Source: Basidiobolus meristosporus CBS 931.73 (lineage: Eukaryota; Basidiobolomycota; Basidiobolomycetes; Basidiobolales; Basidiobolaceae). Taken from it: a stretch of DNA of 54,151 nt. This document shows positions 421-43,164 of the stretch, piece by piece; positions within the stretch are counted from its first letter, which is position 1, and the number at the start of each line of letters is the position of its first letter. The notes below the pieces were generated by a model. That model was given only the letters and a program-made list of their open reading frames with translations, was not told the origin of the DNA and made no database searches. The position numbers and the translations under genes are program-made. The stretch spans positions 1 through 54,151 of the forward strand of contig MCFE01000603.1 in assembly GCA_002104905.1 (NCBI GenBank), given 5' to 3'.

Positions 421-2460
421 ATGGTCCCCATACCAAGCCTCAACTCATCTTTAGTACAACCCAGACAAAACCCATCCCCCAGCTCACAAGCACAGTCCAG
501 ACTGGAAAAGTCAATGTTGAATCCGTTCAAGTTCTTACCAAATGATTTTAGTATGGCCCAAGTGTCTATGATGAGCCTTCATACAGATATTTGGGCACTA
601 CTGATTAATCTAGCAGAACTAGATACCTCAGAGAGTCAACAAAGATGGAAGAATTTGAGTAGAAAGCTGTGGCATGAGTTCTACATCAAGATGCCAGCCA
701 ATGTATGTAAAAAGATATATAACAAGACAAGTATTGATATCAAGAATGAGCTGAGAGTGAGGGGATTTGACAAAGAAGCCGCGCGGGAGCAATTTTGCAC
801 GCAATTTGCACAGTATGGGCCGGACGCGTCTGTTTGTGCCTCAACTTTGGGAACCAAAGAGATTTTGAATGAGTTTTTGCCTCAAATGACTAATGTACTA
901 CACGATATATTAGTAGAGCTAAGTGGCTTCTGAGAGCAATATACACAGGACTCATCCAGGCAACAGCTCCAAAGTATCAGACAGAGGGTAAGTGAATACC
1001 TTGAGGAGTCAGATGGTGAGCTTCAGGAGGAAGAATACAGACCATGAGCAACATTGTCCAGATTGCGCCAGCATGCCTTGCTGGATTCCCTACCATCTCT
1101 TGCAACCACAGCGTGCCAGCACACGTCAGTCCAGACCATGCCAACACCCTTTACCAGAATGCCCCGCACTGAGTCAACGCACGTGCTTCAGAGCAAAACT
1201 ATGAGAACTTGCCAAACTGCTCATTCAGACACAAGTCCATTGGAGCAGACCAAGTTGCGTCAACATGCAGCATCACATCAAACTCAGCCAAGGGCCATCT
1301 CAACGCGTCAAGGCACTGTGGTGGTGTAGAGGTACCCCTGGGAGAAGCTACACAACTCAAGGTGTGTGAGGTGTCTGATGGGTGCAATAACATCTGTGTC
1401 TAAACTGCTGGTGTCTTTGTCAATATGTCACTATGGTAAAAGCTCCTGCTTCTCTAGCTTCCTAGGTGCTCCAAGTGTCTCCAAAGGCCTCTGTGTGCCT
1501 TGTGCACTACCCTGAAAAGCTCCTTGATTGTAGGTCTGAGATGTACTGTTGAAGGCAGGTGCAGTGATCAACTGCTAATCAATAAGGTAGCAGTGTTACT
1601 GATAGAAGGGATGATTTATTGATGAGGGATTGCTTTCCCTTAAATACTTTTCCTGATTGCCAAGTGATTATTAATGACAAGGTTCTAGAAGATTCTAGGC
1701 ATCAGTGGAATTCTTGATGACATCACTATGAGCTAAAAATATGCCAAGAATGTCCTGGAAGGTTCTAAAAGGCACAGCACATTCAACCAATCAGGAATCA
1801 GTAGTCTGAAACCTGTGCAACATAAAATTACCATATATGGTATTGAAATGGTAGGGATGGTAACACAGACCTAGGTCATGTGTCACCGGTACTGACACAG
1901 GTACATGCCTTATGTAGATACATATACTGATCATAAAGCTGAATAACATCTGGGATAACTAATGCTATAACTAATCAGGGTAAACATCATATGGGGATAA
2001 TACTGATACTAAGGGCAAAAGAAGAATGGGATAATACTGATAAGTTAAAATATGGATAAGTATATCATAATGACTATATGAATAAACTTGTCTGTGGGAG
2101 GTATGTTTACACTACCACAGCGCGCCTGCGCGTGCCGTTTTGCCTGACCAACAGCAAGTTACTTCTGGTGAACTGACTGATGATGACCAACATGAAGTGC
2201 CTCAACCACTGGAGCCCTTAGCAAGTAAAAGAACACGTCACCACGTGGCACTACAGGCCGGTTCAGTTGGTTTAGTTGGAGCAATTCAGCGCAGCCAAGC
2301 TGCAGCATTGCACTCATCAACTTGGAGGCAAAATACTGACTACAAATTCACAAGTAGCCAAGATGATAGTCAGCCAGGAAGTAGTATAGGTGTGCAAAGT
2401 GAGTCACTACCAAATGCTTCAGTAGTAATCCCTGTGAGAAAAAAAACCAGGAGAAGATGA
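421..2460 (+). pseudogene. Second ORF of H1, broken: unknown protein of the PIF/Harbinger-like element
   Basis: This is the homologue of the 415-codon second ORF of H2. It starts with ATG at 421 (MVPIPSLNSS) and stays in one frame to 1316, with TGA stops at 931-933 and 1045-1047. At both stops H2 has CAA, which fits an ancestral CGA that decayed differently in the two copies. The reading frame is then split by element X' (1317-2119) and resumes at 2120, ending with a basic tail (RKKTRRR) at 2460. The N-terminal ~170 residues look folded and partly helical; the rest is rich in Q, S, T and R and looks disordered. I recognise no domain. Its divergent orientation from the transposase suggests an accessory or DNA-binding role, as second ORFs of PIF/Harbinger elements often have, but that is inference. 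Confidence 0.7.
1317..2119 (-). mobile_element. X' insertion: 803-bp LTR-like element (likely solo LTR) in H1
   Basis: H2 lacks this segment, which gives exact borders. It runs from TGTGGTGGTG to ACTACCACA, so it has TG...CA ends with short inverted termini. The flanks are GCAC (1313-1316) and GCGC (2120-2123), a 4-bp duplication of GCGC in which the left copy lost a CpG. Read on the minus strand it has a TATTTAA-type box followed by AATAAA, as an LTR would. Its middle is clearly related to the ~1.07-kb X elements at 6371, 29612 and 41580. No coding capacity is visible. Confidence 0.7.
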
Positions 2461-3203
2461 TGCGATTACTTTGAATTGCTCACATTTGTAATGATCCCAA
2501 CAGCCCTTTTTTTTTGCAATCCTAATTGAGCCATTGCAAATCAGTGATCATCAAATTTTTGATATAAGTAATATCAAGGTCGTCTCACATTTGAGACAGA
2601 ACCCCTATAAATAAACACCCTGCATATATATACATCATCTGTAATACCAGTGCAGCTATTGGATCTGTTTTGCACCTACACAATTGCTTGCGCGCTAGCT
2701 ATGACACCTTGTCCAATCACTAGGATCAGGGATTTACTTGCTCAATGGGCAAAATGGGATATTTGATGGCAAATCAGGTAGCTTTTTCAGTAGTCAATGA
2801 GCCAATTGGGGGCTGCCAGCTTCAGGATACTTTTGGACCACTTAACCACTGAGATACTGTCCAATTGGAGTGAGGGTAACCAAAATGATAAGTATCAGTG
2901 TAGTTTATAGTATGATACACATTTATTTTCATTTACATTAAAGAAACATATCCAAATACCGGATTTTACCTGCCATAATAGCGGTATCCAATTGCGCACA
3001 TGATGCAAACATTACAAGTTGGCGCAATCATCCGTGCCAACCTCATCATGTCAGATTGTGCCATAGTGTGTGAGATTGTCCCACATAGTGCAAAATTGTC
3101 CAAGAACAATCCTGCGTTCTGGTAGCTATAATATTGCGCCCAATTGTTCTTTACAACCGTGGATTGCACCGCGCGCCCTGGCATGGTACAATGGAACAAG
3201 TCT
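2461..3203. other. Non-coding right arm of H1 with subterminal repeats
   Basis: This 743-base stretch has no supported gene. Its counterpart in H2 is 27984-28727. The last ~200 bases carry short repeated words around TGCCATAGTG and CCCACATAGTGC, similar to words next to the left end of H2 (25320-25340). Such subterminal repeats are typical transposase binding sites; that role is inferred. Confidence 0.5.
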
Positions 3204-3353
3204 AATGCTACCATACCAATTATCCAGATGGTACTTTCTTTTTCTACCTCCCTGTGAACCATTCATATTACCACTGTTGAATCACTCTTCTTAATTTGCT
3301 TACCCACTGCTACCTTGGGTATTCCACATATAGTTCAAATTAGAAAAAACTAT
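3204..3353. other. Flank of H1, no recognisable feature
   Basis: It begins with AAT, the likely target duplication of H1. I see no ORF or repeat match within the window. Confidence 0.3.
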
Positions 3354-3576
3354 GGCATCCTGCTTACAAACCTCTACATAGGAGCACACCTGCTATAATT
3401 TACACACTTCTATCACCTCAACTTTACAGCTTTTCATTGTGATACTTGCAATGTAGGCATATACCATGCATTGCTGGTAACATATACATCTTGCAAACAT
3501 GTGCTTGGTTGCCACCACCTTTGCCATGAATACACCTGAATATCTGCAAAGAATCTCTTGGTAATTAGCTAATATA
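3354..3576 (-). repeat. Decayed repeat Z, copy 1 (possible gypsy integrase scrap)
   Basis: This stretch matches 24403-24605 on the same strand. The minus-strand translation contains FARCICYQQ at about 3480-3510, also present in the other copy, and resembles the C-x-x-C-Q part of a Ty3/gypsy integrase zinc finger. The gypsy reading is weak. The copy is cut by the LTR of copia A at 3577. Confidence 0.4.
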
Positions 3577-3924
3577 TGTAGTAAGAGTCTTGAAGATATT
3601 GGAAGTGATTGGGAGAACCAACAGATTTTGTAGTTTTCACTTAATGATCTATTGAATGTAAAAGTAGTATTTATACTTTTACAAGGTCTTGGCATAGAGG
3701 CACATAGAATAGGTTTAGAAAGATCCCAAGAGCATGTGTGCAAGGTTTGGGACTGTATGGACAACTTTGAAAATTCTCATGTTCTGGGTACCCAGTATTT
3801 TGGTGAAAGTATTCTAAGTAAATTCCAACATGAATTTTGGTTAGTATTCTTTAGGATCTGAAGGTAATGATCTAAGTGACTACAATAGGTGTACATTTAA
3901 GTGAAATTACAAGTTTGTACAGCA
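3577..3924 (-). repeat. 3' LTR of copia A
   Basis: It runs from TGTAGTAAGAG to TACAGCA (consensus TGTTGTAAGAG...TACAACA), with both terminal motifs mutated. It keeps the conserved hairpin GTAAAAGTA/TACTTTTAC around the TATA box. Confidence 0.85.
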
Positions 3925-3939: not shown

Positions 3940-6370
3940 ATACTCATAATGACTAATCCTAATTTTGACCTAAGATATTCAAACTTATCTCTAGCTGATG
4001 ATTTGGCAAATATGTCTGCAATCATTTAATATGTAGGATAGTAAGATAATTTAACCAAGTTATTCTCTATAGCTTCATATATGAAATGGTGTCTATCATC
4101 TATGTGCTTAGTTCTAGCATGAAATCTGGATTTCTACCTAATTGTATACATCCTTGATTATCTTGAAATAAACTAATAGTCATTTTTTGACGTAAGCCTG
4201 AATATTTGAAAGCTTCCTTAGCCACATTACCTCTTTTATAGCTTCCCAGGCTGTCATATACACTACCTCTGTGGTAAAAAGTCCTCCAATTGGTTGTTTT
4301 CTTGCATTCCATGAAATTACTCCTTTACAGTCAAGAAAGATGCATCCTGTGGTGGGTCTTCTATCAACCAAAATTTGTCCCCTATTAGCATCAGAGTATC
4401 CCACAAGATCCTGTTCTGAATTCTTACCAGTGTATCTTAAGCAGATATCAGCAGTTCCCTTTACATATCCAAGAATCTGCTTAACTGCTGCAATATGATC
4501 AGATCCATAGTTCTGGTTTTGCTGGCTGACAGCTCCCACTGAATATGAGATATATGGATGTATTCCAAGCATGAAATACATCAGACTGCCAATCATTGAT
4601 TGCTAAGGAAAGACAGGGCTTTCAGATGGCACCAAGCTCTCTTGATTTGGCTGAGTTTTGAACAAGTTAGGATTTGTCTCCATTGGGGTAGCTGCTGGTT
4701 GACAGTCTTCCATTTGGTACTTCTAAGTATATCTTGAGTATACTTGGATTGGCTTACGGTGATAGTCTGGGTACTTCTGTCTATGAAGAATCTTATCCCT
4801 AAGTAGTAACTGAGTTCTCCTAGATTGGACATCTTGAACTCCATAGTTAGGCTGGATTTAGTCTCTTTCAATGTTTCTAGGTTATTGGCAGCTATAATAA
4901 GATCATCCACATATAGAGCTAATAGAACTGTATTTGCTAAATCTGGCTTATAGGATGTACTATAGTCAGCATTACTCTGTTTCAAACTCAAAGATTTCAA
5001 ATAAGAATCTATTTTGCAATTCCAGGCTCTTGGTGATTGTATCAGTCAATTTAGAGACTTTTTAAGTTTGCAGACCAAATGGGAGTTATCTTGATCTACA
5101 AACCCATCAGGCTGGTCCATATGCACATCCTCATCAAGTTCTTCATTCAAAAATGCAGTTTTCACATCCATTTGATGTATAAATACCAGTATTTGGCTGC
5201 AATAGCCAATATTAATCTGATGGAATTAAACTTGGCTACCAGTGAAAAGGTCTCAGCGTAGTCAAGCCCATTTGTTTGAGAATATCCTGTGGCCATAGGT
5301 CCTGCCTTGTATCTTTCAGCTGTACCCTCAGCCTTGTATTTTGGCTTAAAGACCCATGGCATCCAACTAATTTTTGGTTGATTGGTAATTTGACCAAGTC
5401 CCAAGTTTGACTTTCCATTAGGGCCTGATGTTCCTCAGTAATTGCAGATCTCCAAAACTGTGTCTAAGGGATATTTAGGGCCTCTTTTACAGTCTGGGAC
5501 TCATCAATATGGACTGAATAGGCATTGGCTGAGTTGGTACACTCATTGATAAAGTAGTTTCTGCCATTTCATGTCCAGTTCAATCTTTGGGCATTTAATA
5601 CTAAAATGATCAGTTATGGAATATTCCTGGGCACTGCTTCAGGCTGTGCCACAGTTGTAGAGTCCTCTGCAGTGAAGAATATTTTGTTTTTCTCTGATTC
5701 AATCCTGACAATTGGAGGACTTGGATCAGATTTTTGTCATCATCTGATGTCATTTTTTGTGAATATTTTGAAATTTCATTAAACAACACATTCCTGGACT
5801 TGATCAGCTTCTTTGTTTTGGTATTATAGAGTCTGTATGCTATACTCTCATTGCAGTAGCTCAAAAATCATCATTTCTCACTTTTTGGCTCATATTGTGA
5901 CTGACTTCTTTGCAGTTTCTTAGCATATGCTGTACACCCAAATATTCCCTGATGCTCTACACTTGATCTGTGTCCATACCATGCTTCAAATGGAGTAGAT
6001 TTACAGAGTATTCTGTTATAACTCTTATTTCTAAGGTACACAGCTGAGGCTACTGATTCTGCCTCAAAATTAAAGGATGATTTTTGATTAAGGATCCTAG
6101 ATCTTACCATAATGTTTATTTATCTGTTTGCATATTCTGCTGCTCCATTTTGCTGTGGGGAATATGGTACAGTAGTCTCTTGTTTTATCCCATGAATTGT
6201 GCAGAAGTAGATGGAGAATTTTGTAGTAAATTCTCCACCATTATCAGAGTGTATTTTCTGATCCTTGCACCAGTTTCTCTCTCCACCATGGCTTCAAACT
6301 CCCTGAGCTTAAACAGAACTTCTTCATTTCTCTCCATGAAGTAGACCTATGTGTATGTGGTATAATTATC
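3940..6370 (-). pseudogene. Copia A pol remnant (integrase, RT, RNase H)
   Basis: Broken minus-strand frames give RNase H with GYSDA at 4180-4596, RT with the YVDDLIIA box at 4593-5000, more RT at 5162-5418, the integrase/RT linker at 5610-5864 and integrase at 5871-6370. RNase H reads TTEVVYM where better copies read TTEAEYM, so a catalytic glutamate is lost. Several frame changes separate the pieces. The order on the minus strand, integrase before RT, is that of Ty1/copia. No functional product is possible. Confidence 0.85.
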
Positions 6371-6466
6371 AGTAAAAGTGACACCCACTGACAGATGTGC
6401 TCATTTGCATATTTTCTACTACACATATTTTAGTTTTATCCCACTTGTCTTACTTGATCAGTGGTA

Positions 6467-6816
6467 TGTTGTAAGAGTCTTGGAGATATTGGAAGTGATT
6501 GGGAGAACAAGTAGATTATGTGGTTTTCACTTAATGATTTATTGAATGTGAAAGTAGTATTTATACTTTTACCTGGTCTTGGCATTAAAAACATGTAGAA
6601 TAGGTTAAGGAAGGTCCCAAGAACATGTGTGCAAAGTTTGGGGCTGTTTGGACAACTTTGAGAATTTTCATGTTCTGGGTACCTGGTATTTTGGTGAAAA
6701 TATTCTAAGTGAGTCCCAACAAGGAATTTTGGTCAGTATTCTCTAGGATTTGAAGGGGATGATCTAAGTGACTAAGTTAGGTCAATATTTAGGTGGAAAT
6801 ACAAACTTTTACAACA
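6467..6816 (-). repeat. 3' LTR of copia B
   Basis: It has TGTTGTAAGAG...TTTTACAACA ends and is followed at 6817-6830 by the minus-strand polypurine tract (GCTGAGTGGGAG). Confidence 0.9.
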
Positions 6817-6829
6817 CTCCCACTCAGCT

Positions 6830-9800
6830 AAATGTTCATACTGACTAGTCCTAATTTTGACCCAAGATATTTGAACTTGTCTCTAGCTAATGGTTTGGTA
6901 AATATGTCTGCAATCATTGCATCTGTAGGACAGTAAACTAAGCTAACTAAGTTATTCTCTATAGCTTCACATATGAAATGATGTCTACTATCTATGTGCT
7001 TGGTTCTAGCATGAAAAGTTGGATTTCTACCTAATTGTATACATCCTTGATTATCTTGAAATAAAGTAATATGCGTTTTTTGACATAGGCCTAAATCTGT
7101 AAAAAGCTTTCTTTACCACATTGCTTCTTTTGTAGCTTCACAGGCTGCCATATACTCTGCCTCTGTGGTGGAAAGTGCTACAGTTAGTTGCTTTCTTGAA
7201 TTCCATGAAATTGCTCCTTTACAGTAAAGAAAGGTGTATTCTGTGGTGGATCTTCTGTCTTCCAAATTTTGTCCCCAATCAGCATCAGAGTATCCCACAA
7301 GATCCTGTTCTGAATCCTTATTAGTGTATCTTAAGCAGATATCAGCAGTTCCTTTTAGGTATCTAAAAATCCGCTTAACTGCTGTAATATGAACAGATCC
7401 ATAGTTCTGATTATGTTGGCCAACAACTCCCACTGAATATGAGATATCTGGACGTGTTCCAAGCATGATATACATCAGACTGCTGATCATAGATTAATAA
7501 GGAAAGTCAGGGCTTTCAGATGGCACCAAGCTCTCCTGATTTGGTTGAGTTTTGACCAAGTTAAGGTTTGTCTCCATTGGGGTAGCTGCCGGTTTACAGT
7601 CTTCAATTTGGTACTTCTTTAGTATATCTTAAATATACTTGGATTGGCTTAGGGTGATAGTCTGGGTACTTCTGTCTATGGAGAACTTAATCCTGAAGTA
7701 GTAACTGAGTTCTCCTAGATTGGACATCTTGAACTCTCTAGATAGGTTTGATTTAGTCTCTTCCAATGTTGCTAGGTTACTGGCGGCTAAAATAAGATCA
7801 TCCACATAAAGAGCCAATAGAGCTGGAATTGCTCTATCTGGCTTTTAGTATATACTATAATCAGCATTACTCCCTTTGAAACTCAAAGATTCCAAATAAG
7901 AATCTATCTTGCAATTGCAGGCTCTTGGTGATTGTTTGAGACCATATAGTGACTTTTTAAGCTTGCAGACCAAATGGGGGTGATCTTGGTCTGCAAACCC
8001 ATCAGGCTGGTCCATATACACATCCTCATTAAGCTCTCCATTCAAAAATGCAGTTTTTATATCCATTTGATGTATAAAAAACTTGTATTTGGCTACAATA
8101 GCCAATATTGATCTAATGGAATTAAACTTGGCTACTGGTGCAAAGGTCTCAGTATAGTCAAGTCCTTTTGTTTGAGAGTGTCCTTTGGCTACAAGTCTTG
8201 CTTTGTATCTTTCAATTGTACCATCAGCCTTGTATTTTGTCTTAAAGACCCATCTGCATCCAATTGATTTCCGGTTGATTGGTAATTTGACTAAGTCCCA
8301 TGTTTGATTTTCCATCAGGGCCTGATATTCCCCAGTTATTGCAGATCTCCAAAACTTTGTCTGAGGGCTATTTAGGGCCTCTTTTACAGTCTGGGGTTCA
8401 TCAATATGGACTAAATAGGCATAGGCTAAGTTTGTACCCTCATTGACATAGTAATTTGGGCTATTTCTTGTCCAATTGGATTGCCTGGCATTTGACACTG
8501 GAATGCTCACTTCTGGGATATTCCTGGGCACTGATTCTATCTGAACCACGGTTGTAGAGTCCTCTGGAGTGAAAAAAGTTTCATTGTTTTGCTCTGATTC
8601 AATCCTGACAATTGGAGGACTTGAGATCAGATTTTTGTCATCATCTGATTTTGTTTTTTGTGAAAATTTTCAATTTACATCAAACAACACATCCCTGAAC
8701 TTGATCAGCTTCTTTGCTTTGGTATTGTAGAGTCTGTATGCCTTACTCTCATTGCAGTAGCCAAAAAATATGCATTTTACACGTTTTGGCACAAATTTTG
8801 ACTGATTTCCGGCCAGTTTTTTGGCATATGCTGTACACCCAAATATTCTTAGATGTTCTGCACTTGGTCTGTATCCCCACCATGCTTCAAATGGGGTAGA
8901 ATCACAAAGTATTCTGTTATAACTCCTATTTTTCAGTCATACAGCAGTGGCAACTGATTCCGCCCAAAAATCATAGGATAATTTTTGATCAAGGAACATA
9001 GATCTTGCCATATCAATTATTGATCTGTTAGCTTGTTCTCCTACTCCATTTTGCTGTGGGGAGTATGGTACAGTAGTCTCTTGCTTTATCCCATGAATTT
9101 TGCAGATGTGGATGAGAGTTTTGAGGTATATTCTCCACCATTGTCAGAGCGTATTTTCTTGATTTTTTACCAGTTTCTCTCTCCACCATGGCTCTAAACT
9201 CCCTGAACTTAGACAAAGCTTCTTCCTTTCTCTCCATAAAGTAGACACATGTGTATCTTCTATAATCATCAATAATAGCAATTAAATACTTCATCCCACC
9301 TAAGGATAAATTTTGCATAGGTCCACACAGATCTGAGTGAATTAGATCTAATTTTTTCTTAGTTTTGATTAACCCAGAGCTCTTGAACGGTTGTCTGGCT
9401 TGTTTCCCATATATGCAGGCTTCACAGTGCTCCAAATTAGCTGGGGGATCAATTTTCACTCCAGAAATTAGCTGATCTTTGATCATTTTACGCAAATACT
9501 CAAAATTGATGTGTCCAAATCTCCTGTGCCAAAGCATTGGTGTTTCTTCATTTAAGTTACTTATATTGGCTTCCAGATATGATGGAATATAAGTCAACTT
9601 GTATAGATTCTGCTCTCTGATGCCCAAAGCAATATGGGCACCATTTTGATCAGTGATCCTGCATCCAGAATTGTCAAAATTGAAACTGAGTCCTTCTGCT
9701 GTGGCCTTGCTTACAGAGAGTAGGTTCTTGGCTATTTCAGGTACATAGAGTACTTCTTTAAAGGTCAGTGTATGGCTTCCTTCACTGCTTCTAAGGTTTA

Positions 9801-9990
9801 CTTGGATAGTTCCTTCTCCCACTGCATCAAGTGTGTTCTATCATTACCCATGAAAACCCTCTTAATTGGAATTTCTTGATATTGGGTAAAAAGTTCTTTT
9901 TGGTGTGTTAAGTGTTGAGAAGCTCCAGAGTCAATATACCACATATGAGAATCCTTGTTTGTGGCCATATTTAGTGCAGATATGAATGGT
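6830..9990 (-). pseudogene. Copia B pol (protease, integrase, RT, RNase H), broken
   Basis: On the minus strand: protease/integrase linker and integrase in 9822-9028, with the HHCC finger (WHRRFGHI...CEACIYGKQ) and the first catalytic D in IHSDLCGP; RT in 8549-7845 with HQMDIKTAFLNGEL; the RT box YVDDLILA in 7817-7629; RNase H in 7490-7113 with GYSDADWGQ and TTEAEYMA. An indel near 9116-9130 breaks integrase where better copies read SDNGGEY. Stops separate the other blocks. The family normally encodes one long polyprotein made with Gag; this copy cannot. Confidence 0.9.
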
Positions 9991-10088
9991 CTATCTTGAG
10001 TTGTTGCAGCATTTCCATATTCAGGCTTCTTTTGCTGATTATCTTTCTTTTTGAGACGCTGGTCTGATGTGTGTCCTTTCCTTATGCA

Positions 10089-10772
10089 TTAGTTACATAA
10101 CAGGTTGCTGTTGCCTTTGTAGGGTCTTTGGTACCTCCTTTGCTGGTTATTGTTGCTTATTAAAGCATTTTCTTCTTCCTTCTTATTGGCCCTTAATTTT
10201 CTCAATTCTTCATCCAGGAGCCTTCCATATATGTAATTTAAGGTCAAATCTTCAGTTCTGGACTCTAGGGCTGATAAAAGGCCCTGAAACTCATCTGTCA
10301 GGCTATTCAGGATGGTAACTATCGCATCCTCATCAGTAGTTGGTACGCTCACAGATTCCATCTCATCTACCAGCAGGGTAATTCTGTTAATTAGGTTTTT
10401 CATTTCTTCTCCTGGCAGCATCTTTGTAGTAAAGAATTTTCTTCTCAGATACATTTTCTTGGCAGCTGAACATGACTGGTAGGTGTCTTCTAGTGCCTTC
10501 CAGGCATTCTTTGCTGTTTTTGCTCTTGAGCATTGAATTAGCAATTTGTCATTAACATTAAGGCAAATACAGTTAAAGGCACTTTGTTCTTTCTTCTGGT
10601 ACCTCAAGGCTTCCTCTCCCACATTTTTAGGAGGGCATTCTTCTCCCATGACAATATCCCAAAGGCCTCTTTCTTGTAGCAGCATCTTTATTTTCACCTT
10701 CCACACCTGGTAGTTATATCCATCCAACTTTTCAGCAGAGGGAAAAATTCCAGTAATAGCAGTAGTGGGCAT
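10089..10772 (-). pseudogene. Copia B gag
   Basis: The natural start is the ATG at 10772-10770 (MPTTAITGIFPSAEKLDG), just downstream of the primer-binding site; the longer open frame reading in from the LTR is not the gene start. It encodes a UBN2/copia-type Gag (LLQERGLWDIVMGEECPP, then AKTAKNAWKALEDTY). A stop at about 10089 truncates it at the zinc knuckle, just after LLCN, where intact copies continue CNYCKRKGHTSDRC. Confidence 0.85.
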
Positions 10773-10791
10773 TGCAGAGAGTGACAGCTTA

Positions 10792-10804
10792 GGGTTCTTA
10801 ACCT
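10792..10804 (-). other. Degenerate primer-binding site of copia B
   Basis: It lies directly against the 5' LTR. On the minus strand it reads GGTTTAAGAACCC, a decayed form of the family site GGTTATGAGCCC. Confidence 0.6.
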
Positions 10805-11153
10805 GTTGTAAGAGTCTTGGAGATATTGGAAGTGATTGGGAGAACAAGTAGATTATGTGGTTTTCACTTAATGATTTATTGAATGTGAAAGTAGTATTTA
10901 TACTTTTACCTGGTCTTGGCATTACAAACATGTAGAATAGGTTAAGGAAGGTCCCAAGAACATGTGTGCAAAGTTTGGGGCTGTTTGGACAACTTTGAGA
11001 ATTTTCATGTTCTGGGCACCTGGTATTTTGGTGAAAATATTCAAAGTAAATCCCAACAAGGAATTTTGGTCAGTATTCTCTAGGATTTGAAGGTGAAGAT
11101 CTAAGTGACTAAGTTAGGTGAATATTTAGGTGGAAATACAAATTTTTACAACA
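10805..11153 (-). repeat. 5' LTR of copia B
   Basis: Ends TGTTGTAAGAG...TTTTTACAACA, 349 bp. Read on the minus strand it has TATAAATA and, a few bases later, AATAAA. One hairpin arm around the TATA box carries a mismatch (GTGAAAGTA). Confidence 0.9.
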
Positions 11154-11192
11154 TACTATCCCATAAGCTGGCTGTCTATCACACCTGCTTAC

Positions 11193-11561
11193 TGTTGCAA
11201 TTTAAGAAGTGATTTGGATATAAGGAACTTATCAAGAAATAGTGATAATTGTTGAACTGTTGTTTATTCATAAAGAAGCTCAGTATTTATACCTTTGTAG
11301 AAGTAATACAGCTGCAACACTGAGTAGGGAGGGTTTCTCAATATTCAGGAGCATTCTGTAACAGTTTCAGGGTTAGTACATAATGTTTGGTAATAGTTTT
11401 AATTTGATCCTGACTATAGGGGAATAATCATAAGATCATATATCTGGAGAAAGTGGCAAAGTTAAGGCAGTAAATGAGTCCTACAGTGACTAAGACTAGC
11501 CTAGAATTGTTAAGTAAATTTTTAGCTGCTGAATGATACCAAATAGTCCAATATTTCAACA
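11193..11561. repeat. Solo LTR S, separate family, inserted in X2
   Basis: A 369-bp segment from TGTTGCAA to TTTCAACA is absent from X1 and X3. It is flanked by perfect 5-bp duplications CTTAC (11188-11192 and 11562-11566). No internal region is present, so this is a solo LTR. It has TGTTG...CAACA ends like the copia LTRs but little other similarity to them. Confidence 0.85.
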
Positions 11562-12482
11562 CTTACCTTATTGCATAAGTTATCCCTCACTTTATGTAAG
11601 ATTACTAGCTATTAGTGCTTCTATATTAGGCAAGTACCTGTGCCAATATCCATGACACATGGTCAACCCATGTCACCATCCCTACCATTTCTACACCATG
11701 AGTATTATCCCTATGTTACATAGCTTTCAGAGTATTGATTCCTGATTGGTTGGATGTGCTATACCTCTTGGAACCTTCTGGCACCTACTTAGAATACTCT
11801 TAGCTCATTCTGATGTCATTAAGATTTCTATTGATATCTGGAACCTTCTGGAACACAATGATTAGTAATCACTTAGCCAGTGAGAAAAGTATATAGGGGA
11901 GGCAATCCCTCATCAATGAATTATCATCCCTTTTATCAATATACCAACTTGTTGATTAGTGTGATCACTGCTACCTGCTGCTACCTGAACCTCCAATCCC
12001 AGACCACAGGACACTCCCAGCAAACCATGCTGACAGCCAACTGACCCCAGAGGCACTACTTGTGAGGAATGCCCAGAGCAGGTATCTTGTATAATATTTG
12101 ATTCTTTCCCAAGTTTGTGCTTCTACAGGCAAAGATACTTTTCTTTCTTTGTAACTATTGATTGCAGCTGCATTCTTATCAAGTCCTTGCTGGTGGAGTT
12201 TATAATTGTTTTGACTTTGGAAGCATTAGTACATTGTCATCTCAAAGGATGCTGAACCCAGCACATACTTTTGTTAAGACACCAACTAAGTTGGGGATTG
12301 TAGCTCAATAGTTTTTCCTTGACAAGCTTGTGGCTTTATTTCCCATCACATTAGATTAGAGAAAGAGCCCAAGTATTTCTAGCAAGCTTTTGCCAGAGGA
12401 TATTGCACCCAGTGAGCACCCCACACATACAACACTTGAGAAGTGTTGGATGTATCTCTCCCTTGAACTTATACACCACCAC

Positions 12483-14218
12483 AATGCTCAAGAATGAGCT
12501 TGCTAAGTTGCCAAGCTCAAGAACCCCAAACTTCAGAAATGAGTTTACTCTGTGCACAGATGCTTCAGACTATACATTTGGTGGAATACCAACCCAAGAA
12601 CATGAGGGAAAGAACTACCCAGTTGCTTTTGAGTCTAAATAGCTGAACTCAGCAGAACAAAACTATCAAGTGGATGAGAAGTAGATGCTTGCCATAATAC
12701 ACTGCATGAAGACCAGAAGATGCTACATTGAAGGAGTCAAGTGCACTGTGAAGACTGATCACTTTGCACTCAAGTATATATTTACTCAGAAAGTACTCTT
12801 CAGATGGATGACAACAGGGAATGAATATTTTTTGCAATTTGACTTGGATATTGTCTACTGCCCTGGGAAAAACAACACAGTTGCTGAAGCTGCATCAAGG
12901 CTAGAACAAGTTGCAGAACTCAACCTGGTGTATGAATCAGATTGGCCTAGCTTATTACCAGAGTACTTGGAGGACCAAGCCCTTCCTAATGAGGTGGATG
13001 AATCAATCAAGAAGAAAATCCAGGGTGAAGCCAGCAAATTTATAGTTTAGAATAAAATACTCTACCAATTTGTTGATGGAAGCCCTGTTGTCTATTGCCC
13101 TTATGTTGTTTGCCTGGATTTAATACATAAGCTGCACAATGGATATGGACATCTTGGAGTTGAAGGAACCTATAACCTTGTAAAGCTAGGTCTTGGTGGC
13201 CCCAAATGGAACAAAATATTGAGAAGCTAGTGAAAACATGCCCAAATTGCCAAATCAACCAAGGCCAACCACAGAGAATTGCTTAGCTCTTTCCCTTAGA
13301 GCCTGTGGGAGCATTTAGAAGATGGGGAATTGACATTATTGGAAGACTGCCAACCACCAGGATATGCAACCATTGGATCCTAGTTGCAATAGACCATGTC
13401 ACTAATTGGCCAGTGGCTAAAGTGGTACCTGTAGCCAATGAACAAAAAGTTGCAAGTTTCATCTACTATAAGATCCTTTTAAAGTTTGGATGCCCTTTAG
13501 AGATTTATTCATCAGAGGTGCAAACTGCATGGCAAAAAACATTGGAATCTTACCTGGAAATGCAGCAGATCAAACACTTGAAAGTCTCAGCATACCACCA
13601 TAGATCTAATAGAGTCACTGAGAGGTTTGATAGAATATTTGGGAAAAATGCTGATCAAGTATGCAAGTGGAGGTTCCAGTAGATGGGGTATGTATATAGA
13701 CCAAGCACTTTTTGCCTGAAGTGTTAGAGTAAACTGTACAACCCAACATTCCCCATTTTACTTAGTGTATGGATGTGAACCAAGGATTCCAGGAAATATC
13801 ACAAAAACAAAGCTAACAGATGCCTTAGAAGATGAACTCAGTCAGCCAAGTAGACACCAACAGCTGGAACAAAGAAGTCAAGAGGCACAGGTCAAAGTAT
13901 TTTTGAATGCAGAAAAGATGAAGCAGAGACTTGATAAGACTATATCACCTGAGGCATTGACAGTTGGGAACATTGTATTTCTACAAAACAATACATAGAA
14001 GAAGTTTGAGTCACAATGGACAGGACCCTTCAGGATCATCAGAGAATGTTCATTTGCCGCTTACCAAGTAGTGGACAAACAAGGTAATATCTGGGAAGAC
14101 TTAGTTCATAGCAATAGACTCATCCTAGCAAGACTTGCTGACAATACTGAACCATCAAGGTATTGGTATCACAAGAAAAGAGACTCAAAAGAACCCTCCC
14201 AACTTTAGCAAGGGAGAG
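12483..14218 (+). pseudogene. Ty3/gypsy G1 pol remnant (RNase H, integrase)
   Basis: The plus strand encodes RNase H (CTDASDYTFGGI near 12555; TDHFALKYIF near 12750; VYCPGKNNTVAEAASR near 12855), then the integrase finger region (LHNGYGHLGVEGTY near 13135), the integrase core (RRWGIDIIGRLP at 13320) and the C-terminal region (MYGCEPRIPGN at 13765; QWTGPFRI near 14015). RNase H before integrase is the Ty3/gypsy order. The integrase core reads EIYSSEVQT where a catalytic D is expected, and stops occur at 12640, 13050 and elsewhere. RT and everything upstream are missing; element X2 abuts at 12482. Confidence 0.85.
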
Positions 14219-14847: not shown

Positions 14848-14849
14848 AA

Positions 14850-25491: not shown

Positions 25492-26376
25492 TTACTCTTC
25501 ATAATGCTCCTGACACATTTCTCTCAGTGGATGTCTTCTTGTATGAACATACTGTGCATTAATAAGTATCTTAACTATTTTACCTATTCTGCTGTTTTCT
25601 CCTATATATGACTTTCCTCTGTATTTACCTGCCAATATGCTGAATCTCTTCAGATATCCAAATGTGTGCTCTACCCTTACTCTGAAATGATTAAATATCT
25701 CATTGTAGAGCTTCTGCTTCCTGCTAAGCACACCATTCCTTGGCTTCCTATAAGCTGTAATACATCCTAATCTCTGACAATCCTCTCCTGTATAGGCTAA
25801 GTCTGCCATACATTTCTCCCCTCTACTGAATTCAGGATGATTCTCTACCCAGAGTGCTTTGTCATGCCTACTTCCAGCAAATGGCCCACTTAACCAGATG
25901 ATGTTACACTCAATGTCAGACAGTGCTTGAAACTTCACACAGTGGGCCTTGTACTTGCCAGAATAAAAGTGCCTCTGCCCTCTAGAAGTTCTGTTAATCC
26001 TCACTGGGAAGGTATCCAAAATACTCCTGATATGGAACCTGTTGCTGAACACTCTGGGATATGGAAGTCTATTAGAGCTTCTGAACCAAGTATTCCAAGC
26101 TTGCTCTAAGTCATTCATACCCTCTGCAAGGTGGTTCTCCATTGCTGTCAGCTGGGAATGAAAGCTTCTAGGACTTTTGTTGCCATGGATGGTGGGATGA
26201 AACCTTGTAGGGCAATAGTTCTTGTAATAGCAGAGAAGCTTAACAAGGGATCTCCATGAGTAAATTGGGGTTGATGGTCCTCAGTACTTGAAATAGATCT
26301 CCTCTAGTGTGTCAAAAGGAAATCCAGTGGTAGTGATGGGATTGATGAGAAAAGACCATTCAGATGAGTAAGTCAT
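25492..26376 (-). pseudogene. PIF/Harbinger-like DDE transposase of H2 (one in-frame TGA)
   Basis: The frame runs from ATG 26376-26374 (MTYSSEWSFLINP) to the stop at 25492, 294 residues, with one TGA at 26283-26281. Without that stop it would be continuous; the part from the internal Met at 26142 is 216 residues. Catalytic residues are visible: D in SILDTFPV (residue 43 counted from the 26142 Met), D in MADLAYTG (114) and E in VEHTFGYLKRF (158). The motif SGPFAGSRHDKALW between them fits the DDE_Tnp_4 fold used by PIF/Harbinger and IS5-like enzymes. It would cut the element out and insert it in the nucleus. It is short for the family (often 350-400) and shows no clear N-terminal helix-turn-helix. 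Confidence 0.8.
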
Positions 26377-26735: not shown

Positions 26736-27983
26736 ATGGTCCCTATACCAAGCCTCAACTCATCTTTAGTACAACCCAGACAAAACCCATCCCCCAGCTC
26801 ACAAGCGCAGTCTGGACCGGAAAATTCGATGTTGGATCCGTTCAGGTTCTTGCCAAATGATTTTAGTATGGCCCAAGTGTTTATGATGAGCCTTCATACA
26901 GATATTTGGGCACTACTGATTAATCAAGCAGAACTAGATACCTCAGAAAGTTGACAAATATGGAAGAATTTGAGTAGAAAGCTGTGGCATGAGTTCTACA
27001 TCAAGATGCCAGCCAATGTATGTAAAGAGATATATAACAAGACAAGTATTGAAATCAAGAATGAGCTGAGAGTGAGGGGATTTGACAAAGAAGCCGCGCA
27101 AGAACAATTCCGCGTGCAATTTGCACAGTACAGGCTGGACGTGTCCGTTTGTGCCTCAACTTTGGGAACCAAAGAGATTTTGAATGAGTTTTTGCCTCAA
27201 ATGACTAATGTACTATGTGATATATTAGTAGAGCTAAGTGGCTTCCAAGAGCATTATACACAGGACTCATCCAGGCAACAGCTTCAAAGTATCAGACAGA
27301 GGGTAAGTGAATACCTTGAGGAATCAGATAGTGAGCTTCAGGAGGAAGAATACAGACCGCAAGCAACATTGTCCAGATTGCGCCAGCATGCCTTGCTAGA
27401 TTCCCTACCATCTCTTGCAACCACAGCGTGCTGGCGCACGTCAGTCCAGACCACGCCAACACCCTTTACCAGAACGCCTTGCATCAAGTCAACATGCATT
27501 GAGTCAACGCGCGTGCTTCAGAGCAAAACTACGAGAACTTGCCAAACTGCTCATTTAGACACGAGTCCATTGAAGCGGACCAAGTTGCGTCAACATGCAA
27601 CATCACATCAAACTCAGCCAAGGGCCATCTCAACGCATCAAGGCGTGCCTGCACGTGCCGTTTTGCCTGACCATCAGCAAGTTACTTCTGGTGAACTGAC
27701 TGATGATGACCAACATGAAGTGCCTCAACTACCGGAGTCCTTAGCAAGTAAAAGAATGCGTCAGCGTGTGGCACTACAGGCCGGTTCAGTTGGTTCAGTC
27801 AAAGCAATTCAGCATGGCCAAGCTGCAGCATTGCACTCATCAACTAGGAGGCAAAATACTGACTACAAATACACAAGTAGCCAAGATGATAGTCAGCCCG
27901 GAAGTAGTATAGGTGTGCAAAGTGAGTCACTACCAAATGCTTCAGTAGTAGTCCCTGTGAGAAAAAAACCCAGGAGAAGATGA
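26736..27983 (+). pseudogene. Second ORF of H2: 415-codon unknown protein with one TGA
   Basis: ATG at 26736 (MVPIPSLNSS); the frame stays open to 27983 apart from TGA at 26952-26954, where H1 has CAA (637-639). Residues ~30-175 are the better-ordered part (FLPNDFSMAQVFMMSLHTDI; KLWHEFYIKMPANVCKEIY; ELRVRGFDKEAA; LGTKEILNEFLPQMTNV). Residues ~185-210 are acidic (EYLEESDSELQEEEY). The C-terminal half is rich in Q, S, T and R and ends in RKKPRRR, a likely nuclear signal. I see no Myb/SANT tryptophan pattern as found in the second ORF of plant and fish PIF/Harbinger elements. It is conserved between two copies in the window, so it is a real gene of the element; its function is unknown. Confidence 0.75.
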
Positions 27984-28727: not shown

Positions 28728-29611
28728 AATACATATCCAGCTCATCCAGTCTTTGCATTTGTATTGTTACATATGCATAGGAATATTGATTGGAGTCTGT
28801 GAGAAGTACTTAGGGTATCAGATACTCTGCAATTTCTTGCCAATTCTTTCAAATTTCTCCAGTATCTCAAAGGGCCCATTTAGCTTGAAATGCCCCATGT
28901 ACAACTTGGTCATCAGTATAGGGATATTGTTGAAAGCAAATAGATTGCCTCAAGTAGAAAGCTTTTGCTCCAACAGGTACCCTCTATTGTAAGTATCTCT
29001 GGTCTCCAATTGATTCCCAATTTCAGCCAATTGCTTATAGCTTGCCTACTTTGCTGGAATTGCATGCTGGCTTCTGTATGTTTTCTCTGTGGGAAGATGA
29101 TGTCCTTAGTATTGGAGTTTGTAATAATGATGGGTGTGAGTTATGGAGTAAATCCCCTGGATCTCATACATTTACAGCAATACCATCCATTGTACCCAGA
29201 GAAGCCAGCTATGTTTCTAATGGCTGGGGTATCTCCAATGCAGATAATATAATGTGCTTTGACATGACTGCCATTTGCTGTAATCCCGCTGGAAGGCATA
29301 CAAAATCCATTCAGCAATGGATGCAGGTAGCTATTCAGGTTGGATGGTGATTTAGGCACAAATACCAGTGAGTCTACCATTAGATTTTTGCTCTGATACT
29401 CTAAGATAGGTGGCAGATTCAGGTTGATGAGAATCAGTGGCCAGCAGGATTTGCTGGTAGAGTACTTGCCTAATGAGAATCCATTAAGTGCCAAGGCAAA
29501 GGCATGATCATAAATACCTTCAAAGTAGCCCTTGCTTCTTAGCTGTTTGTAATGTTTGCCATCAAATATATTGGATATGTTTGTGCTTGATTGATACTGA
29601 GTGTGGTATGT

Positions 29612-30974
29612 TGTAGTGGGGTGACAGTGACACCCATTGACAGATGTGCTCATTCCCTTATTTTCTACTTCCCTATACCTCTACTACACTTATTTTTATC
29701 CCATTTGACTTACCCAATCAGTACTATCCCATAATCTGGTTGACTATCACACCTGCTTACCTTATTGCGTAAGTTACCCCTCACTTTATGTAAGAATGCT
29801 AGCTATAAGTGCTTCTGTATTAAGCAAGTACCTGCGCCAGTACCTGTGACACATGATCAACCTGTGTCACCATCCCTACCATTTCCATACCATATATGGT
29901 ATCCCTATGTTACACATGTTTCAGAATATTGATTCCTGATTGGTTGGATGTGCTGTGCCTCTTAGAACCTTCTGGCACCTACTTAGAACATTCTTAGGTC
30001 ATTCTGATGTCATTAAGATTTCTATTGATATCTGGAACCTTCTGGAATACCATGATTAGTAATCACTTAGCCAGTGAGAAAAGTATATAAGGGAGGCTAT
30101 CCCGCAACAATAAATGATCATCCCTTTTATCAATATTCCAACATGTTGATTAGTGTGATCACTGCTACCTGCTGCCACCTGAACTTCCAACCCCAGACCA
30201 CAGGACACTCCCAGGAAACCATCCTGACAGCCAACTGACCTTGGAGGCACTATTTGTGAGGAATACTCAGAGTAGGTATCTTTTATTATACTTGATCCTT
30301 TCCCAAGTTTGTTCTTGTACAGGCAAAGATACTTTTCTGACTATGTAGCTATTGACCACAGCTGCATTCTTATCAAGTCCCTGCTGGTGGAGTTTACAGT
30401 TGTTTTGACTTTGGAAGCTTTAATACATTGTCATCTCAAAGAACACTGAACCCAGCACATACTTTTGTTAAGATGCCAACTAAGTTGGGGATTGTAGCCC
30501 AATAGTTTTCCCTTGACAAGCTTGTGGCTTTATTCCCCTTCACATTAGATTAGAGAAAGAACCCAAGTATTCCAAGCAACCTTTTGCCAGAGGTTATTGC
30601 ACCCAGTGAGCACCCCACACATACAACACTTGAGAAGTGTTGGATGTATCTCTCCCTTGAACTTATACACCACCACAATGCTCAAGAATGAAAGAATTGT
30701 TTTGACTTTGGAAGCATTAGTACATTGTCATCTCAAAGGATGCTGAACCCAGCACATACTTTTGTTAAGACACCAACTAAGTTGGGGATTGTAGCTCAAT
30801 AGTTTTTCCTTGACAAGCTTGTGGCTTTATTTCCCATCACATTAGATTAGAGAAAGAGCCCAAGTATTTCTAGCAAGCTTTTGCCAGAGGATATTGCACC
30901 CAGTGATCACCCCACACACAAAACACTTGAGAAGTGTTGGACATATCTCTCCCTTGGACCTATACACCACCACA
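29612..30974 (+). mobile_element. X1: LTR-like element inserted in the E2 transposase gene, with duplicated tail
   Basis: Starts TGTAGTGGGGTGACAG and ends CACCACCACA. The uninterrupted site is visible in E1 (about 20425), so the borders are firm. Flanks ATGT (29608-29611) and ACAT (30975-30978) reduce to a duplicated ACGT after CpG decay. TATATAA (30084-30090) followed by AATAAA (30109-30114) looks like an LTR promoter and poly(A) signal. Unlike X3 (1070 bp) the last ~280 bp are present twice (30402-30677 and 30695-30974). No coding sequence is seen. Confidence 0.75.
30402..30974 (+). repeat. Tandem duplication of the X1 tail
   Basis: Both units run from TTTTGACTTTGGAAGC to CACCACCACA. Between them lie 13 bases, ATGCTCAAGAATG (30678-30690), identical to the sequence after X2 at 12483-12495 in gypsy G1. 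The second unit is closer in sequence to X2 than to the first unit. Confidence 0.8.
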
Positions 30975-31640
30975 ACATCATGCTTTGCAATATTTGTCAG
31001 ACTGCATGAGCTTCTCTAGATAGGGTATTACTGGAATATATTTGGAGTGTGAGAGATGTTTTCTCTCAATAGTGGTGGATTCCTGACAATTTGGACATGT
31101 TGCAATGGTGGCATTTTTGGATGTGAATGCCATGCAACTGTTAGCACGTACTGGAATCAGGACAGTCTCTAGGTCATATTTTGCCAGCCACATGATGGTT
31201 GCCCATTTGCACCATGTACATGGTAAGTTGCATCCTGAATTGATTTTGGCATGTAGTATTAATAAATCTCCCAAGCCCCCATTACTGATATTAGTGGAAA
31301 TATGCCACTTCTCTAGCCACAACATTACATCATTTACCAGTAGGTGGATTACTGAGTTCACTTGGCTCTATAATGTATCTTTGGCATTTGCTTCCACAAG
31401 TGTAGTGTCATTGCATATTTGGAATTTGCCTTGGCTCATGCATAGTATTGTTGTCAGGGGAGATAGGCTCACAATCTATCAGTGAGCCTTCTTTGTCAGA
31501 GCTATCACTCTGCATGCCATATTTAGAAGGCTGATGTGAGCCTAAAGGCATCATAAACTCACCTGACTCAGCTTACACAAGGTGACAAAGACAGCCAGGT
31601 GCCAATATAGAAGTATCAACTGGCTGGCAAGGTAATGTTG

Positions 31641-39200: not shown

Positions 39201-42200
39201 TGACCACAAACAAGGATTCTCAGATGTGGTATATTGGCTCTGGAGCTTCTCAACACTTTACACAACAAAATGAACTTTTTACCTAATATCAAGAAATTCC
39301 AAATAAGCTGGTTTTCATGGGTGACTATAGAACACTTGATTGAGTGGGAGAAGGAACTATCCAAGTAGACCTGAGAAGCAGTGAAGAAAGCCATACACTG
39401 ACCTTTAAAGAAGTACTCTGTGTACCAGAAATAGCCAAGAACCTACTCTCTGTAAACAAAGCCACGGCAGAAGGACTCAGTTTCAGTTTTGACAATTCTG
39501 GATGCAGGATTACTGATTAAAATGGTGCACAATTTGCTTTGGGCATCAGAGATCAGAATCTATACAAATTGACTTATATTCCATCATATCTAGAAGCCAA
39601 TATAAGTAACTTAAATGAAGAAACACCAATGCTTTGGCACAGGAGATTTGGTCACATCAATTTTGATTATTTGCGCAAAATGATCAAAGATCAGCTAATT
39701 TCTGGAGTGAAAATTGATCCCCCAGCTAATTTGGAGCACTGTGAAGCCTGCATATATGGGAAACAAGCCAGACAACCGTTTAAGAGCTCTGGGTTAATCA
39801 AAACTAAGAAAAAACTAGATCTAATTCACTCAGATCTGTGTGGACCTAAGCAAAATTTATCCTTAGGCAGGATGAAGTATTTGATCACTTTTATTGATGA
39901 TTATACAAGATACACATGGGTGTACTTCATGGAGAGAAAGGAAGAAGCTGTGTCTAAGTTCAGGGAGTTTAAAGCCATGGTGGAGAGAGAAACTGGTGAA
40001 AAAATCAAGAAAATACGCTCTGACAATGGTGGAGAATATACCTCAAAACTCTTCATCCACTTCTGCAAAATTCATGGGATAAAGCAAGAAACTACTGTAC
40101 CATACTCCCCACAGCAAAATGGAGTAGCAGAACAAGCTAACAGATTAATAAAGGATATGGCAAGATGTATGATCCATGAGCAAAAATTATCCTATGATTT
40201 TTGGGCAGAATCAGTTGCCACTGCTGTATATCTTAAAAATAGGAGTTACAACAGAATACCCTTGTAATTCTACTCCATTTGAAGCATGGTATGGATGCAG
40301 ACCTAGTGCAGAACTTCTAAGAATATTTGGGTGTACAGCATATGACAAAAAACTGGCCGGAAATCAGTCAAAATTTGAGCCAAAAAGTGTAAAATGCATA
40401 TTTTTGGGCTACTGCAATGAGAGTAAGGCATACAGACTCTACAATACCAATGTAAAGATGCTGATCAAGTCCAGTGATGTGTTGTTGGATGAAAATTCAA
40501 AACTTTCACAAAAAACGACATCAGATGATTACAAAAATTTGACTCAAGTCCAGCAATTGTCAGGATTGAATCAGAGCAGAACAATGTGAATTTTTTCACT
40601 CCAGAGGACTCTACAACCATGGTTCAGCCAGAATCAGTGCCCAGGAATATCCCAGAAGTGATCATTCCAGTATCAAATGCCCAGAGATCCAATTGGACAA
40701 GAAATAGCCCAAATTACTACATCAATGAGGGTACAAACTTAGCCTATGCCTATTTAGTCCATATTGATGAATCCCAGACTGTAAAAGAGGCCCTAAATAG
40801 CCCTCAGACAAAGTTTTGGAGATCTGCAATAACTGGGGAATATCAGGCCCTGATGGAAAATCAAACTTGGGACTTGGTCAAATTACCAATCAACCAAAAA
40901 TCAATTGGATGCAGATGAGTCTTCAAGATAAAATACAAGGCTGATGGTACAATTGAAAGATACAAAGCAAGACTTGTAGCCAAAAGATACTCTCAAACAA
41001 AAGGACTTGACTATACTGAGACCTTTGCATTGGTAGCCAAGTTTAATTCCATCAGATTAATATTGGCTATTGCAGCCAAATATAAGTTTTTTATTCATCA
41101 AATGGATGTAAAAACTGCATTTTTGAATGGAGAACTTGATGAGGACATGTATATGGACCAGCCTGATGGGTTTGTTGACCAAGATAACCCCCATTTGGTC
41201 TGCAAGCTTGAAAAGTCACTATATGGTCTCAAACAATCACCAAGGGCCTGGAATTGCAAGATAGATTCTTATTTGGAATCTTTGAGTTTCAAAAGGAGTA
41301 ATGCTGACTATAGTACATACTATAAGCCAGATAGAGCAAATCCAGTTCTATTAGCTCTATATGTGGATGATCTTATTATAGCCGCCAAGAACCTAGAAAC
41401 ATTGGAAGAAACTAAATCCAGCCTATCTAAGGAGTTCAAGATGTCCAATCTAGGAGAACTCAGTTACTTCTTAGGGATTAAGTTCTCCATAGACAGAAGT
41501 ACCCAGACTATCACCCTAAGCCAATCCAAGTATATTCAAGATATACTAAAGAAGTACAAAATGGAAGACTGTAAACTGGTGTGGTGGTGTATAGGTCCAA
41601 GGGAGAGATACGTCCAACACTTCTCAAGTGTTTTGTGTGTGGGGTGTTCACTGGGTGCAATAACCTCTGGCAAAAGCTTGCTAGGAATACTTGGGTTCTG
41701 TCTCTAATCTAATGTGAAGGGGAATAAAGCCACAAGCTCGTCAAGGGAAAACTATGGAGCTACCATCCCCAACTTAGTTGGCGTCTTAACAAAAGTATGT
41801 GCTGGGTACAGCTTCCTTTGAGATGACAATGTACTAAAGCTTCCAAAGTCAAAACAACTGTAAACTCCACCAGCAGGGACTTGATAAGAATGCAGCTGTG
41901 ATTAATAGTTACAAAGACAGAAAAGTATCTTGGCCTGTACAAGAACAAACTTGAGAAAGAATCAAATATAATAAAAGATACCTACTCTGAGTATTCCTCA
42001 CAAGTAGTGCCTCCAAGGTCAGTTGGCTGTCAGCGCGGTTTCCTGGGAGTGTCCAGCAGCCTAGGGTTGGAAGTTCAGGTAGCAGCAGGTAGCAGTGATC
42101 ACACTAATCAACAAGTTGGTATATTGATAAAAGGGATGATGATTTATTGTTGAGGGATAGCCTCCCTTATATACTTTTCTTACTAGCTAAGTGATTACTA

Positions 42201-43164
42201 ATCATTGTGTTCCAGAAGGTTCCGGATATCAATAGAAATCTTCATGACATCAAAATGACCTCAGAGTGTTCTTAGTAGGTGCCGGAAGGTTCTAAGAGGC
42301 ACAGCACATCCAACCAATCAGGAATCAGTGTTCTGAAACCTGTGTAGCATAGGGATACCATATATGGTATGGAAATGGTAGGTATGGTGACACGGGTTGA
42401 TCATGTGTCACGGGTACTGGCGCGGGTACTTGCCTAATATAGAAGCACTTATAGCTAGTAATCTACATAAAGTGAGGGGTAACTTATGCAATAAGGTAAG
42501 CAGGTGTGATAGTCACCCGGCCTATGGGATAGTACTGATTGGGTAAGACAAATGGGATAAAACTAAAATAAATGTAGTAGGGATATAGGGAAGTAGAAAA
42601 TGAGGGAATGAGCACATCTGTCAGTGGGTGTCACTGTCACCCCACTACACCAGCAGCTACCTCAATGGAGACAAACCTTAACTTGGTCAAAACTCAACCA
42701 AATCAAGAGAGCTTGGTGCCATCTAAAGGCCCTGACTTTCATTATCAATCTATGGTTGGCAGTCTTATGTATATTATGCTTGGAACACATCCAGATATCT
42801 CATATTCAGTGCGAGTTGTCAGCCAACATAATCAGAATTATGGATCTGATCATATTGCAGTAGTTAAGCGGATTTTTAGATACCTAAAAGGAACTGCTGA
42901 TATCTGCTTAAGATACACTTTAAAGGATTCAGAACAGGATTTTGTGGAATACTCTGATGCTGATTGGGGACAAAATTTGGAAGACAGAAGATCCACCACA
43001 GAATACACCTTTCTTCACTGTAAAGGAGCAATTTCATAGAATTCAAGAAAGCAACCAACCGTAGCACTTTCCACCACAGAGGCATAGTATATGGCAGCCT
43101 GTGAAGCTATAAAAGAAGCAATGTGGTTAAGAAAGCTGTTTACAGATTTAGGCATATGTCAAAA
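39200..43164 (+). pseudogene. Copia F2 pol, split by X3
   Basis: Protease reads WYIGSGASQHFT, so the catalytic D of DSG is changed to G. Integrase at 39539-40267 is well kept: HHCC finger, IHSDLCGP, RSDNGGEYTS and PQQNGVAEQ all present. A frameshift near 40262 leads to 40176-40589; a stop at 40916 precedes RT. RT at 41030-41577 has HQMDVKTAFLNGEL and YVDDLIIA. X3 follows. RNase H resumes at 42650 with PDISYSVRVVSQHNQ and YSDADWGQ, then breaks into LTR sequence at 43165. Confidence 0.9.
41580..42649 (-). mobile_element. X3: complete 1070-bp LTR-like element inserted in copia F2
   Basis: The uninterrupted site is known from other copia copies (for example 48826-48845), giving exact borders. 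On the minus strand it runs TGTAGTGGGGTGACAG to CACCACCACA. Flanks CTGG (41576-41579) and CCAG (42650-42653) reduce to a duplicated CCGG after CpG decay. On the minus strand it has TATATAAGG near 42165 and an AATAAA-type signal just after. No coding capacity. Confidence 0.8.

Follow-up and report, generated by a model that had tools for sequence, protein, structure and literature searches.

Two related LTR element families of Basidiobolus meristosporus insert at 4-bp target sites with a central CpG

A 54,151-nucleotide stretch of Basidiobolus meristosporus CBS 931.73 (assembly GCA_002104905.1, contig MCFE01000603.1, positions 1 to 54,151 of the forward strand; hereafter the window) carries insertions of two related long terminal repeat (LTR) element families, X and X', between 4-bp flanks that often mismatch. 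Searches of the whole genome (89.0 Mb, 1,311 contigs) with the ends of their LTRs revealed that the target is VCGB: a central CG, preceded by any base except T and followed by any base except A, without a requirement for a palindrome. Sites with TG or CA in the centre are one-step decay products of CpG, and the pairing of the two flanks agrees with a CG ancestor that decayed independently on each side. A first-pass annotation of the window had proposed LTR elements with a 4-bp stagger and a central CG at insertion, and the junction counts given below bear this out.

Target sites across the genome

For X', we counted distinct junctions, from which near-identical flanks had been removed. Collecting the copies and inspecting their 4-bp sites, a check proposed in the first-pass annotation, showed CG at 26, TG at two and CA at one of 29 distinct right junctions in loci chosen by LTR similarity alone. 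The CG frequency in the flanks is 0.98% (p about 2e-49 for 26/29), compared with 8.1% for TG, 8.9% for CA and 6.3% for TA. The 39 distinct left junctions comprised 32 CG, four CA and three TG. Two further sets of right junctions had been selected by flank, one of 17 required to read NCG (all CG) and another of 17 picked for the absence of NCG (TG 8, CA 9), and the CG fraction is taken only from the set of 29. When the three sets were pooled, no centre other than CG, TG or CA was found at the 63 distinct right junctions.

The right end of the X' LTR has 351 exact matches genome-wide, 5' LTRs included. Of these, 53 continue into the internal region by pattern, and an N-pyrimidine-purine (NYR) triplet follows 288 of the remaining 298, NCG in 151 cases. 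The listings of such ends for X and X' consist of the first entries by contig and still include duplicated loci. Among the first 100 of the 288 NYR ends, the centre was CG in 51, CA in 26, TG in 23 and TA in none. In the first 100 of the 351 matches there were 82 NYR ends, 16 ends with the internal pattern and a single internal junction that had mutated. Of 42 ends in this sample that lacked both NCG and the internal pattern, 20 were fetched; 19 proved to be NTG or NCA sites, and the other was the mutated internal junction. On the left side, searched with the common form of the LTR start (the form of the window copy is atypical and matches only two places), YRN precedes 251 of 312 starts. For the 91 starts with letters shown, the centres were CG (56), TG (19), CA (16) and TA (0). 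In the first 100 starts 76 were preceded by YRN, and 19 of the other 24 were judged by position to be starts of 3' LTRs.

X follows the same rule. Its LTR right end has 824 matches, again with 5' LTRs included, and NYR follows 684 of them; 100 listed NYR ends showed CG in 53, CA in 24, TG in 21 and TA in two. The first 100 of the 824 matches consisted of 83 NYR ends (two of them TA), 14 internal junctions (11 from a genome search, three by reading) and three misfits, so that 81 of 86 sampled external ends were CG, TG or CA, two TA and three other. X pairs with both sides read in the fetched loci were CCGT/CCGT, ACGT/ACGT, ATGG/ATGG and CCAT/CCAT.

The outer positions of the site are also restricted. 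None of the distinct X' junctions, 63 right and 39 left, has T at position 1 or A at position 4. In the longer X' listings T came first in 0/100 and A last in 2/91, with one TCG among 100 shown X' NCG ends; in the X listing T came first in 3/100. VCGB thus equals the foamy-virus consensus VYRB with its centre fixed as CG. The first-pass annotation had described the sites as CG-centred palindromes, which does not apply to them as a class: 16 of 43 distinct right junctions with CG are self-complementary (37%), the same as the 37% predicted by the base composition of positions 1 and 4, and a palindrome requirement was rejected on this ground. Common X' sites include GCGG, CCGC, ACGC and CCGT; GCGC and GCGT also occur.

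Decay of the duplicated sites and insertions in the window

We compared the two junctions of 44 solo LTRs, paired by hand from two genome listings and scored for the two central bases only. CG was kept on both sides in 14 and on one side in 19, while three pairs showed opposite decay (TG/CA) and eight the same decay. If the two sides decayed independently, the four classes would hold 12.6, 21.9, 4.8 and 4.8 pairs, respectively (fit p 0.18). A CG ancestor is needed in 36 of the 44 pairs and eight are ambiguous. Left flanks were also fetched for eight decayed right sides; of the six readable ones, four of which are also among the 44 pairs, three keep CG, two show opposite decay and one the same decay. 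As the CpG in each duplicate decays independently, the flanks cease to match and the scars of insertion become hidden.

Several observations weigh against a CG-centred target with later decay. The same decay on both sides was found in eight of 11 doubly decayed pairs, somewhat above an even split (one-sided p 0.11), which leaves room for a minor fraction of targets that were TG or CA from the start. At the 86 external X ends sampled the centre is TA in two, and the bases after three others read CCCA, CAGG or TCCT; these three may be rearranged, and only their right sides were read. Among the first 100 X' right ends, 84 lack the internal pattern, and one of these (on contig C423) is not NYR and was left unread. 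Of the 24 X' left starts that YRN does not precede in the first 100, position identifies all but five as those of 3' LTRs. Finally, five two-sided solo LTRs have unequal outer bases (GCAT/GCAC, GCGC/GCGT, CCGG/CCGC, GCGG/CTGG and CTGT/CCAG), which we assume to reflect mutation or LTR-LTR recombination.

The insertions of the window illustrate the decay, and the flanks quoted in the first-pass annotation for X1, X3, X' and X2 are all present in the sequence. X3 is a minus-strand solo LTR (41580-42649) in a copia-like element, flanked by CTGG (41576-41579, +) and CCAG (42650-42653, +). Two sibling copies of its host element have an intact empty site CCGG (7589-7592 and 51369-51372, both +), so that the reconstructed CCGG is directly observed; a third sibling reads CTGG at the same spot (4695-4698). 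Together with the pattern of the 44 pairs, these sites uphold the earlier attribution of the mismatched flanks to CpG decay. The X' insertion is a solo LTR of 803 bp (1317-2119, in true orientation on the minus strand; most other copies have 804 bp) between GCAC, a decayed GCGC (1313-1316, +), and GCGC (2120-2123, +). Its empty site in a sibling repeat reads GCGT (27643-27646, +), the last base of which lies itself within a former CpG. X1 (29612-30974, +) is an LTR copy with its own tail duplicated internally (30697-30974); it lies between ATGT (29608-29611, +) and ACAT (30975-30978, +), and its empty site in a sibling repeat reads ACAT on the minus strand (20425-20428). X2 (6377-12483, +) is an LTR copy with an eroded start, the first matching base being 6377; a copia-like element (6467-11153) and an unrelated solo LTR (11193-11561) interrupt it. 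The next four bases are ATGC (12484-12487, +), a right duplication compatible with a decayed ACGC.

In X1 (30678-30974) the second LTR tail stands behind a 14-bp stretch, ATGCTCAAGAATGA, which also adjoins X2 (12484-12497), as though an adjacent flank had been copied with it. The unrelated solo LTR in X2 has a 5-bp duplication, CTTAC. It is the only unrelated insertion in a thin within-genome control, as the duplication of the copia-like element is not clearly readable. An open reading frame (ORF) of the window (25492-26142, minus strand, 216 aa) had as its sole match a 294-aa unnamed protein with the transposase-type Pfam domains PF01609 and PF13359.

CpG is strongly depleted in the window (observed/expected 0.108), with TpG at 1.34 and CpA at 1.35. 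Low CpG together with raised TpG and CpA is the usual mark of CpG methylation decay.

Structure and class of X and X'

The LTRs of both families are direct repeats with TG...CA ends, with a primer site and a polypurine tract beside them. X was read in a stretch (locus L090, G000:C616:76250-82450) that contains the last 45 bases only of the 5' LTR, the internal region, a 1,072-bp 3' LTR and the start of the next element. The single open ORF of this copy encodes 1,617 aa and showed, above the cut-off, RVT_1 (775-946), RNase H (1011-1144, two models), Integrase_H2C2 (1253-1309) and rve (1328-1417); it also carries DUF4100. Its integrase has a D57D34E triad and a GPY motif, with 45 residues from GPY to the C-terminus. 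No chromodomain model, as a chromovirus would have at the C-terminus of its integrase, and no protease model matched the ORF at E <= 0.001. In this copy no env gene follows pol: the ORF ends at L090:5039 and the 3' LTR begins at 5079, with 39 bp between them. By its gene order (reverse transcriptase (RT), RNase H, integrase), X is classified as an autonomous LTR retrotransposon of the Ty3/Gypsy (Metaviridae) type. Gypsy elements of the insect-gut fungus Smittium are among the closest relatives of its RNase H-integrase part and its best named match (46% over 99%, 44% over 97% and 53% over 54% of the region; DUF4100 in two of the three).

A full X' copy measures 3,617 bp, with LTRs of 804 bp, a G-rich polypurine tract and the primer site TATT-TGGCACCCAACG, which X shares. 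The copy at L010 has a single ORF longer than 100 aa, of 618 aa, whose alignment with the N-terminal portion of the X ORF shows 39% identity over 612 columns. A domain-model search with this ORF matched no RT, integrase or Gag model, and none of the 7,998 candidates scored in a protein search was a relative at E <= 0.001. A weak Asp_protease match (E 0.014, below the cut-off) lies in a region that aligns to X. On these comparisons X' is classed as a diverged, Gag-protease-like Gypsy relative of X without RT or integrase, the label 'Gag' being given by position and by alignment to X. The two LTRs of the same X' copy differ at 0, 0, 0, 0, 1 and 5 positions in six full copies compared, and such near-identical pairs imply that some insertions are recent.

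X' is poor in CpG. The L010 copy has only nine in 3,617 bp, six of which are the same three LTR positions counted twice; these three were kept in 35, 35 and 29 of 37 LTR copies (L009-L039). Almost no target sites are therefore left within X' itself. Near-identical flanks surround a full X' at one of the loci L009 and L019 and a solo LTR at the other, on a different contig, which suggests two haplotypes or a duplicated region. An X-like LTR of about 85% identity with a variant primer site, TTGGCTCCCAACA, adjoins X' at one place (L023 and L042). Two X primer sites lie 6,105 bp apart in L090, and on G000:C235 three X' LTR starts follow each other in a row, 2,813 bp apart; from their spacing we read both arrays as head-to-tail elements with shared LTRs.

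Origin of the CpG rule and its precedents

The 4-bp duplication of X and X' is that of prototype foamy virus and other retroviruses with a 4-bp stagger, and the best sequence matches of the X integrase among solved structures were the foamy virus and Ty3 integrases. The foamy virus consensus VYRB is reported to combine a flexible central YR step with T and A disfavoured at the inner edges; target DNA in its intasome is strongly bent, with unstacking of the central YR step, and central YR use averages 63% over random for four viruses (PMC4422553). That preference is statistical, whereas the centre in X and X' is CG or a one-step decay product at nearly every site, a choice far stricter than is usual for retroviral integrases. 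Most probably, the X integrase itself needs a central CpG step in a 4-bp staggered VCGB cut. The simplest account would be a retroviral-like need for a flexible YR step with extra contacts that accept CG only. X' keeps the LTR tips, the primer site and the target rule of X, and because of these it is most likely mobilised by enzymes borrowed from X. After insertion the CpG in each duplicate would decay independently to TG or CA by deamination, probably of 5-methylcytosine.

The near universality of YR centres would also be expected from an enzyme that wants any flexible pyrimidine-purine centre (VYRB), with TG, CA and CG all native, in the manner of foamy virus and murine leukaemia virus, and retroviruses with 4-bp duplications are reported to prefer YR (PMC4422553). 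However, CG is the rarest of these steps in the flanks and yet makes up about half of the listed sites, while TA is found at 0/100 of the X' ends. Moreover, a TG or CA origin of 36 of the 44 pairs would require that CG had been gained, and both intact sibling sites of X3 read CCGG. We regard this reading as improbable, and YR flexibility alone was rejected because of the pairing and because TA is nearly absent. A tether to CpG-rich regions such as promoters, with the CG centre as a by-product, could draw on the higher CpG share of dinucleotides in the X' flanks than in the window (0.98% versus 0.41%); a regional rise to 1%, however, cannot fix CG at one position of nearly every site. Such a tether could act in addition, and as the source of the sequence rule it is very improbable.

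More serious, if still unlikely, is a target of methylated CpG, in which the integrase or a methyl-CpG-binding host partner would use 5-methylcytosine as a landing mark. The strong CpG decay of the window is as expected under CpG methylation, and the sites lie in CpG-poor DNA, sometimes inside older X copies (L011, L031). An unmodified CpG step accounts for the sites equally well, and lentiviral sites are reportedly disfavoured in CpG-methylated regions (PMC3185549). If methylated CpG alone were the target, a Gypsy integrase would read a host silencing mark and the elements would steer into methylated DNA, in a genome with repeats that have lost most CpGs (11% of expectation in the window), while the CpG-poor source lineage of X' (nine CpGs in one 3,617-bp copy) would hardly target itself.

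The first-pass annotation had called the target choice unfamiliar for an LTR element. This was fair, if not absolute. No LTR element with an obligatory CG centre was found in the titles or abstract openings listed by searches of the open-licence PMC literature. The nearest precedents we found, Ginger1 and ZAM, are both partial. Ginger1 combines a Gypsy-like integrase carrying GPY/F with TGTNR termini and 4-bp duplications of CCGG (75%) or CCGT/ACGG (24%) (PMC2836005), and X and X' might in principle be Ginger-like DNA transposons misread as LTR elements. Ginger1 is a cut-and-paste element with inverted repeats (40-270 bp), no RT and a narrower site, whereas X and X' have long direct terminal repeats, a primer-binding site, a polypurine tract and solo LTRs, and X encodes RT and RNase H. 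This anatomy makes the DNA-transposon reading scarcely credible, and it was rejected. The Ginger1-type sites CCGG and CCGT/ACGG occur in X' alongside GCGC, GCGG, CCGC, ACGC and GCGT. The YPYY motif that precedes the zinc finger in Ginger1 was not found there in X by a pattern search, whose sole match, at residue 45, is far from the integrase; the same simple pattern likewise failed to find it in the 121 proteins fetched.

The Drosophila errantivirus ZAM resembles X as a Gypsy-type LTR element with a CG-containing target and a 4-bp duplication (PMC2527525 and a table row in PMC3276498). Its target is reported as CGCGCg, and the ZAM integrase itself is said to bind and nick its CG-containing target region (PMC2527525). 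ZAM differs in its six-base consensus and its three ORFs with env; X requires no more than a CG between V and B, and of these errantivirus features neither env nor the CGCGCg target was found in X. In plant LTR retrotransposons, T at the left and A at the right edge are under-represented in 5-bp duplications, and 4-bp ones have a GC-rich centre; these duplications are mostly 5 bp, and the excerpted part of PMC6911290 makes no mention of a CG-only centre.

Sequence-specific integration has been called exclusive to Drosophila errantiviruses and their derivatives (PMC5408687). X is a Gypsy element without a recognised chromodomain and with ordinary 4-bp geometry for which one dinucleotide is obligatory. 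It connects the target of Ginger1 with Gypsy elements, and it offers a natural integrase specific for a single step for comparison with those of foamy virus and Ty3. Since each scar has a known ancestral base, the insertions provide many two-sided clocks of CpG decay, and tools that require identical duplications may overlook such elements in CpG-decaying genomes.

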